Shown piece by piece: positions 1,596 to 38,610 of a stretch of 64,000 nt of DNA. Source of the DNA: Salinirubellus salinus (GTDB lineage Archaea > Halobacteriota > Halobacteria > Halobacteriales > Haloarculaceae); assembly GCF_025231485.1 (NCBI RefSeq), contig NZ_CP104003.1, positions 3,100,001 to 3,164,000 on the forward strand, written 5' to 3'. Made by a program: the position numbers and the translations under genes. How positions within the stretch are numbered: position 1 is the stretch's first letter; every line of letters begins with the position of its first letter. The notes below the pieces were generated by a model. That model was given only the letters and a program-made list of their open reading frames with translations, did not search any database and had not been told where the DNA came from.

Positions 1596-2321
1596 ATGAC
1601 CGAGGAGCCCGACGCCGAACGCACCGCGGGCGTGGAGGGGGACGCCGCCGGGGACCTCCGCCCCGCGATCCGCCGGGTCGAGGATGGGGACGGACACGAC
1701 TCGCGACTCGCGGACGACGCGGCCCCCGAGGACGACACCGCCGAGGTCCCGCCGGACGTCCGGGAGTACGCCCGCTTCTCGAAGATCGACGGCGCGACCT
1801 ACGACCGGGCCAACGAGTTCCTCCGCGACCGGACCTACGTCACCGCCCGCGAGTGGGCCATCGCGCGGCTCTGTGCCGACTTCCGTACCGAGACCGGTGT
1901 CGAGATGACGAAGATCGGTGAGAACCTCCCGCACCTCGTCCCGTTCATGACCGACACCTACAGCCCGCAGGCGGTGAACCAGGCCCGCGCCTCGTTCAAG
2001 GAGAAGGTCCGCAAGGCCGGCGCGACGTTCCTCTACGGCGCGATGTGTGACTTCTACACCGCCGAGGAACTGGACGACCTGATGTACGAGGTCACCGAGG
2101 TGGCGAAGTTCCTCCTCGAGGTCGAGGGCGTCGAGCTCACCGTCGACGAGGAGCTCGAGGCCGAGGACCGCATCGGCAGCGTGATGCGCGACGTCCGGGA
2201 GTCGAGCGCGGCGCTCCGACACGACCACGTCCACTGCCCGGAGTGCGGGCACGAACTCTCGGCGGGCGGGACCGACGACGCGGAGGCCGAACCGGAGCAG
2301 TCGGCCCCCGCCGACGACTGA
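1596..2321 (+). CDS. DUF5806 family protein
   Basis: 241 aa, matching what I recognise as the haloarchaeal DUF5806 family. A variable acidic N-terminus of about 50 residues precedes the conserved body, which starts near V-R-E-Y-A-R-F-S-K-I and continues through F-L-R-D-R-T-Y-V and MTKIGENLPHLVPFM. The last 40 residues hold a single CPECGH-type half zinc ribbon (C-P-E-C preceded by H-x-H). The body is helical and soluble. Function is unknown. Start is the MTEEPD methionine, with a promoter box 30 bases upstream. Confidence 0.82.
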   Translation: MTEEPDAERTAGVEGDAAGDLRPAIRRVEDGDGHDSRLADDAAPEDDTAEVPPDVREYARFSKIDGATYDRANEFLRDRTYVTAREWAIARLCADFRTETGVEMTKIGENLPHLVPFMTDTYSPQAVNQARASFKEKVRKAGATFLYGAMCDFYTAEELDDLMYEVTEVAKFLLEVEGVELTVDEELEAEDRIGSVMRDVRESSAALRHDHVHCPECGHELSAGGTDDAEAEPEQSAPADD

Positions 2322-2366
2322 CAGCCACTCCTCCGCGTCTCGCGGGCGCTGGCCCGTGCCGCCCCG

Positions 2367-3140
2367 CTACCGGTCGCCCGCGATCGTCAACAGTGGGTAG
2401 TCCGCGACGACCCCGTCGACGCCCGCCTCCCGGAGTCGCTTCACGTCGTGCCACGTCCGGGCCGTCCACGCGTTCACCGTACAGCCACGGTCTCGCGCTC
2501 TTCCCACGAGGGCCGCGTCGGTGAACACCGCCTCCTTCGCGGGGTGGAAGGCGGTACAGCCGTGGCGCGCCACGCAGTCCAGTCCCCAGTCGGCCGCGCC
2601 GTCGGGGACGACGGGGGCGGTCCGGTCGCCGGTCACGTCGTCGGCCGCCGCCAGCGCCGCCTCGAAGAACGAGGAGTAGAGGACCCGCTCCAGCGGTTCG
2701 CAGGTCGCCGCCACCCGCTCGACGAACGGCCGCCACGTCTCGCGCCGCGTCGCGAGGTCGTCCGGGTGGCTGGCGGGCCACACGTCACGCGTCCCGGGGT
2801 TCTTCAGTTCGACGTTCAACCGGACGCCGGGCGGGAGCGCCTCGACCACCGCGGCCAGCGTGGGGACGGTGAACCCGGAACCGAGCACCTCGGCGCCCGT
2901 CACCGTCGCCAGCGGCGTCTCCCACACGACCCCCTCGGCGTCCGTGACGCCCTCGCTCCCGTCGTCGCGTTCGTCCAGCCGCGAGTCGTGGAACACGACC
3001 GGTGTACCGTCGGCGGCCGGCATCGTGTCCACCTCGACGGTGTGGGTGTCGGGGTGGAGACCCGCGGCGGTCACGGCCGGGACCGTGTTCTCGGGGAACG
3101 TCCCCGCGAACCCGCGGTGGGCGAGGATGTCGAGGCTCAC
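2367..3140 (-). CDS. Glycerophosphodiester phosphodiesterase
   Basis: 257-aa single-domain GDPD, expected to hydrolyse glycerophosphodiesters to sn-glycerol 3-phosphate and an alcohol. The TIM-barrel signature is intact: H8-R9 with P16-E-N-T, then E36-V-D38 (metal ligands) and the general acid/base H51 in V-V-F-H-D. The end of the barrel is A-G-V-D-G-V-V-A-D-Y-P. No signal peptide is visible, so it is probably cytoplasmic, working in lipid headgroup or glycerol turnover. Length and start fit the family. It lies on the minus strand beside a DUF1028 gene transcribed the same way. Confidence 0.93.
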   Translation of the reverse strand: MSLDILAHRGFAGTFPENTVPAVTAAGLHPDTHTVEVDTMPAADGTPVVFHDSRLDERDDGSEGVTDAEGVVWETPLATVTGAEVLGSGFTVPTLAAVVEALPPGVRLNVELKNPGTRDVWPASHPDDLATRRETWRPFVERVAATCEPLERVLYSSFFEAALAAADDVTGDRTAPVVPDGAADWGLDCVARHGCTAFHPAKEAVFTDAALVGRARDRGCTVNAWTARTWHDVKRLREAGVDGVVADYPLLTIAGDR

Positions 3141-3198
3141 GTCCGTCGATTCGCCGGCGGCAGCGTAAATCTTGTTCGGGACGGTCGACCGTGAAGAA

Positions 3199-3951
3199 CT
3201 ACCCGTCGGTGGCCGCCTCCCCGCCCTCGTCGTCCGCCACGCCGTCTACACTGTCCTCCTCGTAGGCGTCCTCGTAGCGGTCCATCGCGTCCTCGAACGA
3301 CCGCTCGGCCAGTTCGTAGGTCTCGCGCAGGTCCTCGATGGGCGTCTCCGTGGCGTCGACCCGCAGGTCGTCGGTGAACGACGCCAGTTCGCGCTCCTCG
3401 GTCCGGGCGACCATCACGGCTGCGGAGTGGACGGGCAGGTCCTCGCGCTTGTCGCCCCCCTCGGCGTGGCCGGCGGCGAGTGCGTCTATCAGTCGCTCGC
3501 TCAGGGGTTCCTCGGGGTCGCTCGCTTCGTACGCCGCCGCGGTCTCCGCCACGACCGACTCCCCGGTCAGCAGGTTCCCGGCGACGGTGTACCCCTCACC
3601 GGCGGTGTGACCGTACCACTCCTTGCACTCTTCGCCCGAGAAGGTGAACGTCCCCTCGCGGTCGACGCCGTGCAGTTGTCGGTTCTCGCTGTTCTCGTCG
3701 GCGTCGAGCAGCGACTGCAGAGCGTCACCCACGGCGAGTCCGTCGTCGACGTACTCGATGCCCTTGCGCCCCAGCCGGGTGTTGACGAGCGACTGCGTGG
3801 CGACGGCGCCGTTCTCGGAGACGAACGGACAGAGCGTACCGACGCCGGCGAGTCGCGTGGTGACGGCGACGCCGAACCGGTCGTGTTCCTCGAGGTCACC
3901 CTCGTCGGTCTCGGTCTCGTAGTTCTCGTGGACGCAGATGCTGAAGGTCAC
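3199..3951 (-). CDS. DUF1028 family protein (Ntn-hydrolase-like fold)
   Basis: 250 aa. It has the DUF1028 opening MTFSICVHE, then F-G-V-A-V-T-T-R-L-A-G-V-G and G-A-V-A-T-Q-S-L-V-N. The middle contains E-G-Y-T-V-A-G-N-L-L-T-G, also characteristic. The family resembles Ntn-hydrolases but has no established reaction. The C-terminal 50 residues are an acidic helical extension. It is 58 bases upstream of the GDPD gene on the same strand and may be co-transcribed. I keep the family name and infer no substrate. Confidence 0.85.
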   Translation of the reverse strand: MTFSICVHENYETETDEGDLEEHDRFGVAVTTRLAGVGTLCPFVSENGAVATQSLVNTRLGRKGIEYVDDGLAVGDALQSLLDADENSENRQLHGVDREGTFTFSGEECKEWYGHTAGEGYTVAGNLLTGESVVAETAAAYEASDPEEPLSERLIDALAAGHAEGGDKREDLPVHSAAVMVARTEERELASFTDDLRVDATETPIEDLRETYELAERSFEDAMDRYEDAYEEDSVDGVADDEGGEAATDG

Positions 3952-20003: not shown

Positions 20004-20600
20004 ATGGCAGAGACAGACACGGGGTCGGGACCGAGCGGGGACGTCATCGGTGGTATCGACCTCTCCGACGACCGGTACGTCATCAAGCAGTCCTACATCC
20101 GCTCGAAGTACAGCGTCGAGGACAGCGCCGGCACCGTCGTCCTGAAGGGCAAGAAGAAGCGGTTCAAGATCAAGGAGGAGTTCCCCTTCACCGCACCCAG
20201 CGGGGAGGTCGTCTTCCGCATCGAGGCGCAGAACGTCTTCGACGTGGCCGGCGACTACACCCTCGCCGACGAGGCCAGCGGCGACGCGTTCGCCGTCGTC
20301 GAGAAGGAATGGACGATGTTCCAGCACGTCTACCACATCCGCTCGCCCGAGGGCGAGCGCTGGGCCACCATCGAGTCCGAGTCCGCACTGGTCATGGCCG
20401 CCAAGGAGTTCTTCGAGATACTGGGGCTGCTCCCACACTCCTACTCCATCAGCACCCCGAGCGGCGAGCGCATCGGCTCGATAACGGAGGAGTTCACGCT
20501 ACGGGACGTCTACACGGTCGAACTCGACGACACCGGCACCGCGCCGCGGGAGGCCATCCTCGCCGCCGCGATCGCCATCGACGCGCTCGAGGAGAACTAG
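20004..20600 (+). CDS. LURP-one-related (tubby-like) family protein
   Basis: 198 aa. The pattern matches the LURP-one-related beta-barrel: Y-V-I-K-Q-S-Y-I-R-S-K-Y-S-V-E-D, K-K-R-F-K-I-K-E-E-F-P-F-T and repeated two-strand units with D or G turns (A-G-D-Y-T-L-A-D). It then has a central helix E-S-A-L-V-M-A-A-K-E-F-F-E and a closing helix A-I-L-A-A-A-I-A-I-D-A-L-E-E-N. In bacteria and archaea this family is of unknown function; the fold is related to tubby and scramblase. It is monocistronic, with a T-tract (CTTTTTG) right after the stop. Confidence 0.82.
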   Translation: MAETDTGSGPSGDVIGGIDLSDDRYVIKQSYIRSKYSVEDSAGTVVLKGKKKRFKIKEEFPFTAPSGEVVFRIEAQNVFDVAGDYTLADEASGDAFAVVEKEWTMFQHVYHIRSPEGERWATIESESALVMAAKEFFEILGLLPHSYSISTPSGERIGSITEEFTLRDVYTVELDDTGTAPREAILAAAIAIDALEEN

Positions 20601-20775
20601 AGACCATCTTTTTGCGCTCGGGTGCGCCTGCGGCGCACCGCTCTCTGCTCGCGGACGCGAAGCGTCCGCTGGCACGGCCTGCGGGACCGAAGGTCCCGCA
20701 CTGGCGCAAAAACATGGGGAAAAAGGCGCGCCTCACTGCGTTCGGCGCGGGTGGAACCGCGGCTCCGCCGCGGTA
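20601..20775. repeat. Left hairpin array: four short-loop palindromes
   Basis: Four palindromes in a row: 20621-20639 (GGTGCGCC, loop TGC), 20651-20669 (GCGGACGC, loop GAA), 20680-20700 (TGCGGGACC, loop GAA) and 20756-20774 (ACCGCGG, 5-base loop). They start just after the LURP-one stop with CTTTTTG, and carry A-runs near 20708 and 20720. Bases 20720-20753 are a perfect inverted copy of 21430-21463. Function is unknown; they could act in termination, RNA processing or as a mobile remnant. No gene is present here. Confidence 0.75.
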
Positions 20776-20867
20776 CGCTCGCCGCCCCGCTCCGCCCTCA
20801 CCGTCGCGCGGCGTCCGCTGGCGTCCGCCCACCGCACCGCTAAGCCGCTGCCCGTCCGAGTGGTGGT

Positions 20868-21053
20868 ATGGCAACAGCGGATTCTGAGACCAGCCCCCGG
20901 CTGACCCCGGAGGGACTCCTCGCGGGGTTCGCCGTCGGCGTCACGTTCGCCCTCGTCGTCTGGTTCCTCACGGGTGACCTCGTACCGTGGCTCCCCGTCG
21001 GTCTCGGCATGGGCGTCGCACTCGGTGTGGCGTTCTCCGAGCGCCTCGGCTGA
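20868..21053 (+). CDS. Mini membrane protein, first of a tandem pair (61 aa)
   Basis: 61 aa. After a short polar N-terminus (M-A-T-A-D-S-E-T-S-P-R-L-T-P-E-G-L) come two hydrophobic stretches: L-A-G-F-A-V-G-V-T-F-A-L-V-V-W-F and V-P-W-L-P-V-G-L-G-M-G-V-A-L-G-V-A-F. It ends S-E-R-L-G. The second half is closely similar to that of the next gene, so the pair arose by duplication. Function is unknown; size and glycine zippers suggest a homo-oligomeric membrane peptide. Confidence 0.72.
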   Translation: MATADSETSPRLTPEGLLAGFAVGVTFALVVWFLTGDLVPWLPVGLGMGVALGVAFSERLG

Positions 21054-21090
21054 CCCGGACAGTTATCGCGCTGCTCGTCCACCTGCCGGT

Positions 21091-21291
21091 ATGGCGGCCG
21101 ACACCGACACGGACGAAGGGGACGACGCCGTGTTCACCCCGAAGGGACTCGCGGTCGGCATCGGTTTCGGACTGATGTTCGGGACGGCACTCGGCGTCGC
21201 GTTCGACGACGTCGCCCTGTGGCTCCCCACCGGACTGGCGCTCGGCGTCGCGTTCGCGGTGGCGTTCTCGCGGGAGCTGGACGAGTCCTGA
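21091..21291 (+). CDS. Mini membrane protein, second of a tandem pair (66 aa)
   Basis: 66 aa. Polar N-terminus M-A-A-D-T-D-T-D-E-G-D-D-A-V-F-T-P-K-G-L, then a hydrophobic stretch L-A-V-G-I-G-F-G-L-M-F-G-T-A-L-G-V-A-F, then W-L-P-T-G-L-A-L-G-V-A-F-A-V-A-F. Shared with the first copy are the T-P-x-G-L entry, W-L-P-x-G-L and L-G-V-A-F-x-x-x-F-S-x-x-L. The genes are 37 bases apart and read in the same direction. An upstream in-frame start at 20974 would overlap the first copy and is unlikely. Confidence 0.72.
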   Translation: MAADTDTDEGDDAVFTPKGLAVGIGFGLMFGTALGVAFDDVALWLPTGLALGVAFAVAFSRELDES

Positions 21292-21409
21292 CCGGGGTCT
21301 CCGATGCCGGTCGTTCGACCAGTCTCGACCGGGACGAACGACGGTGCGGTGCTGTACGGTCCAGCGCACCCACCACCGTCGGACTCGCTCCGCTCGTCCA
21401 ACGAGACTC

Positions 21410-21516
21410 GCGAACTCTCCGAGTTCGCTCACCCGCGCCGAACGCAGTGAGGCGCGCCTTTTTCACCCACGTTTTCACTCGAGCGGTGCGCCGCGGGCGC
21501 ACCCGAGAGTAAAAAC
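21410..21516. repeat. Right hairpin array, inverted to the left array
   Basis: Palindromes: 21410-21428 (GCGAACTC, loop TCC) and 21485-21503 (GGTGCGCC, loop GCG). Bases 21430-21463 are the perfect reverse complement of 20720-20753 (34 of 34). Bases 21481-21516 are an imperfect reverse complement of 20611-20646, with a few mismatches. The arrangement brackets the twin membrane genes like terminal inverted repeats. No open frame of note lies between 21292 and 21523. Confidence 0.7.
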
Positions 21517-21523
21517 ATGGTTC

Positions 21524-22261
21524 TTAGACGCTCTCGGGCAGCCACCCCCCGTCCACCTCCACGTTCTCCCCCGAGATGTAGTCCGAGTCCTCGTCGCAGA
21601 AGAACAGCATCGCCTGCGCGAGGTCGTCGTAGCCCGCCCACCGGCCCCGCGGCGCGTGGTCGGGGAACTCGTCGGAGTTCTCGACGACGTACGGCGAGAT
21701 GGCGTTCACCGTGACGCCGTCGTCCTGCGTGTCCGCCGCGAGCATGCGCGTGAACATCAGGACGCTGGCCTTCGCCGCGAAGTACGGGAAGTTCTTCGGG
21801 CTGACGAGCCCCTTCTCGCTGGAGGCGTAGCCCACGTTGACGATGCGGCCCCACTCGTACTCGCGCATCGGTTCGAGCGCCCGCTTCGAGCAGAGCACGG
21901 TCCCGTAGAAGTTCGTCTCGACGACCGTCTGCCAGGTCTCCCAGTCGATGTCCTCCCAGTGGGTCGGGGCGAACGCGCCGACGTTGTTGACGAGGACGTC
22001 GGGGTGCCCGAGGTCGGCCTCGACCGCGTCGAAGATGGCGTCGACGGCCTCGGGGTCGGTCACGTCACCCTGCACGGTCGTGACTGCGACGCCGGCGTCG
22101 CGGGCAGTGTCGGCCACCGTCTCGGCCGCGTCCGCGGAGGTGTTGTAGTGGACGGCCACGTCGGCGCCACAGCGGGCGAGTTCGAGCGTGAGGCCCGCAC
22201 CGAGTCCCTTCGCGCTGCCGGTGACGAGCGCGGTGCGCCCGGAGAGGTCTGGGGTGAGCAT
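21524..22261 (-). CDS. SDR family oxidoreductase
   Basis: 245-aa classical short-chain dehydrogenase. Cofactor motif T14-G-S-A-K-G-L-G is followed by the N-N-V-G structural motif (residues 92-95). The catalytic Tyr160-x3-Lys164 sits in Y-F-A-A-K, with serines S147-S148 just before. The C-terminus has I-S-G-E-N-V-E-V-D-G-G-W-L, as in 3-oxoacyl-ACP reductase-like SDRs. The substrate is unknown. I start at the ATG at 22259-22261; a longer open frame adds 41 residues with no fold. The stop lies just inside the right hairpin array. Confidence 0.92.
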   Translation of the reverse strand: MLTPDLSGRTALVTGSAKGLGAGLTLELARCGADVAVHYNTSADAAETVADTARDAGVAVTTVQGDVTDPEAVDAIFDAVEADLGHPDVLVNNVGAFAPTHWEDIDWETWQTVVETNFYGTVLCSKRALEPMREYEWGRIVNVGYASSEKGLVSPKNFPYFAAKASVLMFTRMLAADTQDDGVTVNAISPYVVENSDEFPDHAPRGRWAGYDDLAQAMLFFCDEDSDYISGENVEVDGGWLPESV

Positions 22262-37566: not shown

Positions 37567-38610
37567 CTACCCCAGCTCGGGTCGCTCGGAGGAAGCCGAT
37601 TCCGAGTCGGCCGCCGACTCCCCCCCCGAGCCGGTGGCCTCCTCCCCACCCTCGCTGGCCGGTTCGTCCTCGTCGAGGGGGACCCGCGCGGGCTCGTCCT
37701 CGTCGCCGGGCTCCCCGGTACGCACCCGGTCGCCGAGCGCCTCGCGGACCGCCTCGTCGAACGGCGTGCGCTCGAACGTGACGAGCTCCTCCATGCGGTG
37801 GTCGCTCACGACGACGGGGTTCTTCAGCCCCAGCACGAGCGGGATGGCGACGCTCCGGGGGACGTCGGTGACGAACCCGAGCCAGTACGAGGAGAGCCGC
37901 GGGCTCAGGACGGGGACGGGGAGGATGAACGGTTCGCTCCCCGTCAGCAGGCGCGCGGTACGCCGGATGACGTCCTCGTAGGTGAGCACGTCGGGACCGC
38001 CGATCTCGTAGGTCTCGCCACGGGTCTCCGGCACGTCCAGCACCCCGACGAGGTACTGGAGCACGTCGTCGATGGCGATGGGCTGGACCGGGGTGCGGAC
38101 CCACTTCGGGGCGACCATCACGGGGAGTTTCCTCGCCATCTGCTCGACCATGCGGAACGAGGCGCTCCCGTCGCCGACGACGATGGCCGCCCGGAGTGCG
38201 GTGAAGTCGAACGCGGCGTTCGAGAGGATGTACTCCACCTCGCGGCGCGAGCGGAGGTGTTCGGAGAGGTGGTCGCGCTCCTCGCCGAGGCCGCCGAGGT
38301 AGATGACGCGGTCGACGCCGGCGTCCTCGGCCGCCCGCGCGAAGTTGTGGGCGGCCCGACGGTCGCGCTCGGCGTAGTCCTCGCCGGCCCGCATCGAGTG
38401 GACGAGGTAGTAGACGACGTCGATGGCCTCGAGGGCGGCCTCGAACGAGCCGTGCTCCAGCAGGTCGCCGGTCTGCACCTCGACGCCGTCGGGTGCGTCG
38501 TACCCCTCGGGGTCGCGGACGAGGGTGACGACCTCGTGACCGGCCTCGAGGAGGGTGGGGACCAGTCGCCCCCCGACGAACCCGGTCGCTCCTGTGACGA
38601 GAACGCGCAT
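37567..38610 (-). CDS. NAD(P)H-binding NmrA/complex I NDUFA9-like epimerase
   Basis: 347 aa. Rossmann start V-L-V-T-G-A-T-G-F-V-G-G-R-L, then V-R-D-P-E-G and the SDR-atypical motif Y-L-V-H-S-M. There is no canonical Y-x3-K catalytic pair in the usual place, so it is likely an NmrA-like binding protein or an atypical SDR of the NDUFA9 type. The region P-V-Q-P-I-A-I-D-D-V-L-Q-Y-L is typical of those. The C-terminal 40 residues are acidic and of low complexity. First gene of a two-gene operon with a membrane protein; it could supply or sense a reduced cofactor for it. Confidence 0.85.
   Translation of the reverse strand: MRVLVTGATGFVGGRLVPTLLEAGHEVVTLVRDPEGYDAPDGVEVQTGDLLEHGSFEAALEAIDVVYYLVHSMRAGEDYAERDRRAAHNFARAAEDAGVDRVIYLGGLGEERDHLSEHLRSRREVEYILSNAAFDFTALRAAIVVGDGSASFRMVEQMARKLPVMVAPKWVRTPVQPIAIDDVLQYLVGVLDVPETRGETYEIGGPDVLTYEDVIRRTARLLTGSEPFILPVPVLSPRLSSYWLGFVTDVPRSVAIPLVLGLKNPVVVSDHRMEELVTFERTPFDEAVREALGDRVRTGEPGDEDEPARVPLDEDEPASEGGEEATGSGGESAADSESASSERPELG

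Follow-up and report, generated by a model that had tools for sequence, protein, structure and literature searches.

Results

Gene content and structure of the locus

The window, that is, the whole stretch of 64,000 nucleotides of the Salinirubellus salinus genome analyzed here, contains two small membrane-protein genes that lie between two convergent genes and are framed by hairpin-rich inverted repeats, referred to as the left and right arms. Each arm is a copy of a repeat with hairpin A towards one end (the A-end) and hairpin B towards the other (the B-end). The features, in window coordinates, are the following.

20004 to 20600, plus strand: LURP-one-related/scramblase-like gene, 198 amino acids, with its stop codon TAG at 20598 to 20600, 2 nt before the left arm
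20603 to 20774, plus strand: left arm, one repeat copy, T-run first, 2 nt behind the LURP-like stop
20609 to 20613, plus strand: T5 of the left arm, preceded by ACCATC at the arm's start
20620 to 20639, 20651 to 20669 and 20681 to 20699, plus strand: three hairpins of the left arm
20708 to 20712 and 20720 to 20724, plus strand: two A5 runs of the left arm
20725 to 20753 and 20756 to 20774, plus strand: hairpin B and third hairpin of the left arm
20868 to 21053, plus strand: small membrane-protein gene 1, 61 amino acids, outside the repeat
21091 to 21291, plus strand: small membrane-protein gene 2, 66 amino acids, paralogue of gene 1; relatives have one such gene at the same place
21430 to 21521, minus strand, read from 21521: right arm, second repeat copy (covariance model E 1.7e-22), 2 nt behind the SDR stop
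21511 to 21515, minus strand: T5 of the right arm, preceded by ACCATG at the arm's start and followed by hairpin A
21472 to 21475, 21459 to 21463 and 21430 to 21458, minus strand: A4, A5 and hairpin B of the right arm
21524 to 22261, minus strand: short-chain dehydrogenase/reductase (SDR) gene (PF13561, E 1.6e-49), convergent to the LURP-like gene
21524 to 21526, minus strand: SDR stop codon TAA, 2 nt from the right arm

The first-pass annotation of this locus had described the inner arms (20720–20753 and 21430–21463) as exact reverse complements, which holds for 34 of 34 positions, and had placed a nearly exact second pair outside them; this pair does exist, at 20603–20643 and 21481–21521 (41 nt at 90%), but in a different register from the one given, where only 10 of 36 positions match. 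The short-loop palindrome pointed out there, GGTGCGCC with its 3-base loop, is present in both outer arms, and the small genes are indeed paralogues, with 44% identity over 48 amino acids. The left arm, on the other hand, is longer than had been described, its outer stem holding three hairpins, two of them extra. The longest exact inverted repeat in the window (arms at most 1.2 kb apart) measures 35 nt, or 38 nt at 97%, as compared with 13–17 nt in 20 windows of 64 kb simulated with a first-order Markov model, so that it is not a product of chance, and the fold z-scores were −5.27 for the left arm (20604–20750) and −3.97 for the right arm. The arms mirror each other because the outer LURP-like and SDR genes face each other, and in both arms the T-run lies 6–8 nt into the repeat; read on the plus strand, the right arm presents hairpin B, T5, 8 nt, and T4. 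The LURP-like gene, which showed weak Pfam matches only, all below the cut-off (E 0.004–0.007), has orthologues in 47 of the 57 genomes of the host's family, and the small proteins gave no Pfam match above the cut-off.

The arms belong to a dispersed, covarying repeat family

A BLAST search with the left arm returned 52 matches in the host genome, itself included, and a covariance model built from 18 host copies returned 111 matches at E ≤ 1 (a figure that includes overlapping matches and fragments of single elements) and 66 at E ≤ 3.7e-7. Searching the host and its relatives for further copies of the arms thus revealed a dispersed repeat with at least 60 copies in the host genome. At E ≤ 0.01, the model matched 56 of the 57 sampled genomes of the family (host included) and 22 of 22 genera, G023 being the sole sampled genome of the family without a match. 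Across a sample of the phylum, 16 of 148 genomes matched at E ≤ 1e-6, all 16 in the host's order (24 order members listed), and no match at this threshold was found in the 12 other genomes listed nor in the 112 unlisted. A pattern scan of named genomes gave at least 80 loci, all haloarchaeal among the matches listed, the genera among the matches listed including Halosimplex, Halorientalis, Haloarcula, Halomicrobium, Salinibaculum, Halarchaeum, Halohasta, Natronomonas, and others. Of 29 best loci inspected, 26 showed the complete unit, T- and A-runs included, and the other three were truncated. Leaving out the short loci L083, L086, and L105 gave the 26 relatives' copies used below.

Read from its A-end, the repeat comprises ACCANNTTTTT, a stem leading into hairpin A, an A-run, ∼6–8 nt, a second A-run, and hairpin B, after which a third hairpin is often present; the stem of hairpin A pairs the T-run with the first A-run, and the opposite strand reads hairpin B, T-run, ∼8 nt, T-run. 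Both hairpins covary. Among the 18 host copies, aligned by sequence alone, 90.7% of cells were paired versus 77.3% in shuffles, both sides had changed in 16 of 28 pairs, a count that none of 500 shuffles reached, and the structure paired at most 51% of cells when slid along the alignment, in a test that favors the structure because it was drawn from folds of the same 18 sequences. Among relatives (54 matches in 51 chosen loci), 97.7% of cells were paired versus 66.8%, and 208 cells carried double changes versus 57, in an alignment that was made to the model and leans towards its structure; double changes were spread over 13 pairs, a number reached by 17 of 500 shuffles.

Several individual elements stood out. 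In L286 (G013, behind the OTC stop), hairpin A appears reversed relative to hairpin B, as if inverted in place, and the model match is on the other strand. The element region of L283, which follows OTC in G079, contains long homopolymer runs of G and C that probably reflect an error of sequencing or assembly at a strong hairpin. The host contig carries two elements near one end that recur, with the same junctions and at nearly equal spacing, near the other (G000:C1, ∼38–52 kb and 4100–4114 kb); one pair has two identical 500-base stretches, the 3.1-kb loci of the other pair are not base-for-base identical, and the pairs may be an unresolved overlap of a circular chromosome. Two other host genes ∼36 kb apart (L061 and L065; G000:C1:1520034 and 1484246) have identical last ∼60 bases, by eye the end of an acyl-CoA dehydrogenase, with nearly identical elements behind both.

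The repeat begins at stop codons in one orientation

In 59 of the 66 host copies, the A-end lies between −4 and +5 nt of a same-strand coding stop, as compared with 23 of 3000 random positions; the pairs at 38104/4100265 and 51657/4113814 look like one long duplication, so that the distinct count is 57 of 64. The 66 copies are all the model matches at the stricter threshold given above, and the stop is that of a coding-like frame. For six of the 66, in which extra hairpins had divided the match, a weaker match lying upstream supplied the A-end. A stricter test of 30 host copies, in which overlap with the stop was disallowed, was passed by 18 (random, 4 of 1000). The B side behaves differently, with a stop within 5 nt in none of the 66 copies and an opposing stop within 100 nt in 17 (random, 207 of 3000), indicating that most copies do not occupy a short gap between convergent genes; the stronger side of the repeat may often serve no gene. 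Among named relatives, 27 of 71 copies begin at a coding stop (random, 4 of 1951), the 71 being what remained of 86 pattern matches after removal of 3 in which no A-end was recognizable and, from the other 83, of 12 close to a locus end. Among the 25 best-scoring relatives' copies (the 26 minus L092, which is the same site as L091), the A-end was within 5 nt of a stop in four and the B-end within 10 nt of a stop in six. The genes concerned include a tRNA gene, as in L106, where tRNA-Arg ends at 1500 and the element begins at 1501.

The arms are independent of the small-gene pair

The first-pass annotation had favored reading the gene pair and both arms as one cassette, a non-autonomous mobile unit with terminal inverted repeats, in agreement with the mirror-image arms on either side of the pair. 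Against this, arms occur singly throughout the host genome, and the small gene occurs without arms: among 20 small-gene loci of relatives, none had a covariance-model match within 1.5 kb on either side, whereas both host loci did, and among 20 LURP loci fetched, repeat matches were confined to the host locus. For example, G068 has the LURP-like gene, one small gene, and the convergent SDR gene but no arms, and in G032 the LURP-like and SDR genes are adjacent with neither small gene nor arms between them. One small gene lies directly behind the LURP-like gene in G011, G065, and G078 and farther from it in G029, and the order in G008 is LURP-like gene, small gene, SDR. From these arrangements, the small gene was probably duplicated in the Salinirubellus lineage, and the arms were probably gained in that lineage, or lost elsewhere, as a separate matter. 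A short target duplication of fixed length, as expected of a cassette or MITE, is likewise missing, host copies having no flanking direct repeats (0 of 66) and relatives having repeats of 22–81 bp that are always a gene end. The annotation had itself named arms that are common single elements, and the genes present in the absence of arms, as grounds for rejecting the cassette, and both situations were observed. We therefore consider the cassette extremely improbable; the annotation's other suggestions, putative bidirectional terminators or a duplicated structured element, are a better fit to two covarying hairpins.

Gene ends are copied at the repeat in related haloarchaea

Direct repeats of 43–76 bp between the 5′ and 3′ flanks, scoring at least 36, were found around 11 of the 26 relatives' copies (one site, L091/L092, being represented in two genomes), against a control of 400 mismatched pairs in which 99% scored up to 16.5 and the maximum was 33.5. 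At the named loci, 8 of 71 had flank repeats scoring at least 20 (control, 0.13%), and in relatives the flank repeat is the 3′ end of the neighboring gene. In the host genome, flanking direct repeats were found at none of 30 copies in this comparison and at none of the full set of 66. At the left arm, a 15-bp match (87%) that might have been the remnant of a gene end was judged to be chance, the flank test of that arm scoring 11.5.

The nuoI-like and ornithine carbamoyltransferase (OTC) genes were compared at 59 orthologous loci, the best of 57 genomes, with L258 omitted as too short. Where a B-first element follows the gene, the gene's own last 22–81 bp, stop included, are copied behind it in 20 of 32 loci, a proportion that is not a genome-wide rate because these two genes were chosen on account of the copies seen there; the corresponding counts are 1 of 6 with an A-first element (the OTC gene of G013) and 1 of 21 with no counted element (G007, where pieces of an element end are visible). 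All 55 model matches and a start limit of −20 nt underlie these counts, and a cross-gene control, run with 49 of the 55 matches and a tight start limit, gave 0 of 1740. In all 22 cases, the copy starts 0–8 nt behind an A-run that carries GGTGG or a sequence close to it and marks the foot of hairpin A. The OTC copies measure 22, 32, 35, 46, and 59–67 bp, implying several events, and the 67-bp junction is shared by several genera, down to almost identical extra bases, implying that part of the pattern is old. In four of six genomes, the OTC copies are nearest to their own gene end, the exceptions being G062 and G075, of one genus, which are nearest each other; this suggests, on sequence comparison, repeated duplication or conversion of gene ends.

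Larger arrangements are also found. In Salinibaculum litoreum (L112, G014:C1:2702000-2707500, 1692–3494), ten tandem 171-bp units consist of the element and the neighboring gene's 3′ end, the units differing from one another only in the final bases of the tenth (99% matches). In L100 (1500–1770 and downstream), tRNA-Arg(CCT) precedes two elements, first a shortened and then a full one, with the 3′ part of the tRNA copied once behind the first and several times behind the second. At the OTC locus, G062 has the gene, element, copy, element, and copy, whereas G024, of the same genus, has the bare gene; beyond its distal copy, G062 carries the DNA that follows the only gene end of G024, an arrangement that fits insertion of units or their clean removal through recombination of one copy with another. 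Both elements of G062 are also present in G075, with different DNA beyond. No OTC-end copies were seen at other loci in a weak search, which recovered the known local copies in only four of seven genomes (G060, G005, G019, and G014, missing G062, G013, and G002), and the host's own OTC gene had no element in the stretch read.

These observations bear on whether the repeat is a REP/BIME-like or MITE-like mobile element that is moved by an enzyme in trans and prefers the place behind stops, termination being a side effect. Such an element would explain the near-identical palindromic copies dispersed as the 66 host matches are, the direct repeats around the 11 relatives' copies, the presence and absence at OTC between G062 and G024, and junctions that always fall at the foot of hairpin A. 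It would not explain why the duplication has no fixed length and is always the neighboring gene's end, why host copies have no flanking repeats, or why the 67-bp OTC junction recurs across genera, with much of the pattern old. The Y1 transposase domain PF01797 (Y1_Tnp in general, not RAYT alone) is found in 34 of the 57 family genomes, with one in the host; it is absent from G071, G014, G002, and G022, which each have 34–45 model matches, so that carriage of the repeat and of a Y1 (RAYT-type) transposase do not coincide across the 57 genomes, and a Y1 transposase as obligatory mobilizer was rejected. We regard a mobile element of this kind as unlikely. In relatives, the element is also a site at which gene ends become duplicated locally, probably through recombination or template switching where hairpin A has its foot, although the preference for this route over a transposase is less certain. 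Given that the break always falls there, possible routes would include nicking specific to the hairpin, template switching, and copying of the mRNA end from RNA.

Discussion

Together, these data support the view that the two arms are independent members of a dispersed structured repeat that acts, we infer, as an asymmetric bidirectional transcription terminator, a reading to which we assign a probability of roughly 70%. A polymerase leaving the gene would meet a T-run ∼10 nt behind the stop, and one arriving from the other side would meet hairpin B, a T-run, ∼8 nt, and a second T-run; the LURP-like mRNA would thereby end at the left arm, and the SDR mRNA as well as the transcript from the two small genes would end at the right arm. 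T stretches have been described as the intergenic termination motif of Haloferax volcanii, and in a reporter T5C gave 95% termination and one tested hairpin 59% (PMC7237163). A hairpin terminator placed only several base pairs after a gene was almost completely repressed in E. coli (PMC4824070), and a T-run needing no preceding hairpin would suit a terminator ∼10 nt behind a stop codon. On the other hand, 7 of the 66 host copies have no stop at the A-end, few of the 25 best-scoring relatives' copies have one there, few host copies have an opposing stop near the B-end, hairpins and T-runs are also expected of a mobile palindromic repeat, and the similarity between copies exceeds what a terminator alone needs, all of which count against termination.

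A conserved, covarying fold directly behind coding regions, with extra hairpins in the outer stem of some copies, might also be expected of a 3′-UTR structure that affects mRNA stability or serves as a regulatory RNA rather than in termination. The T-run precedes hairpin A, however, and much of the transcript in an archaeon should then end before the structure forms, judging from the findings described in PMC7237163; moreover, a search of 20400–21700 against Rfam gave no family at threshold and one chance-level match (15.3 bits versus a cut-off of 74). We find this explanation improbable, more so than a mobile element.

The terminator reading can be extended, tentatively and with somewhat less than even confidence, to a general behavior: these haloarchaeal gene-end repeats would settle exactly behind stops and tRNA 3′ ends and copy the last 22–81 bp of the host gene, stop included, so that the gene would gain a portable bidirectional terminator together with a spare end, and the original end would be pushed away together with the downstream DNA that had followed it. 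If true, this would show how terminators spread and renew in high-GC archaeal genomes, and it would expose a recurrent duplication of gene 3′ ends with a defined break point across a whole archaeal family. Both the termination claim and the copy-number dynamics are directly testable in laboratory haloarchaea.

With archaeal T-tract terminators, such as the intergenic T-stretch motif of Haloferax volcanii (PMC7237163), the repeat shares a T-run behind the gene, T5C in many relatives' copies, and hairpins that can add termination; here, however, the T-run is one component of a long repeat that is conserved and dispersed and has at least two hairpins, the other strand carries two T-runs, and the distance to the stop codon is nearly fixed. 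Bacterial REP/BIME sequences are likewise dispersed extragenic palindromes forming composite units (PMC2817692 and PMC3733652), whereas the present repeat is haloarchaeal, lies at stop codons in one orientation, carries T-runs, is accompanied by gene-end duplications, and has no clear link to a Y1 transposase. The SMRs and PATEs of Haloquadratum are also short, transposase-free haloarchaeal repeats with palindromes; SMR-A is ∼110 bp, targets other mobile elements, and makes no target duplication, and PATEs derive from IS605-type ends (PMC3119063). The present family differs, on the basis of these published descriptions, in lying behind gene stops.

T-tract terminators and palindromic repeats are thus each of a known kind, whereas a stop-codon-hugging composite of the two with gene-end copies was not found described in a literature search that returned no account of this repeat family and whose scope excluded most subscription journals. 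The E. coli tyrT locus harbors the 178-bp rtT repeats, tandem units containing the 3′ end of a tRNA gene and known from a single locus. Tandem units with a gene 3′ end are equally a feature of L100 and of the 171-bp array; such units occur in relatives only (the ten 171-bp units, the tRNA-Arg of L100, OTC, and nuoI) and are absent from the window. Unlike rtT, they involve several genes, both protein-coding and tRNA, across several genera, and each unit has a dispersed hairpin repeat for its second half.
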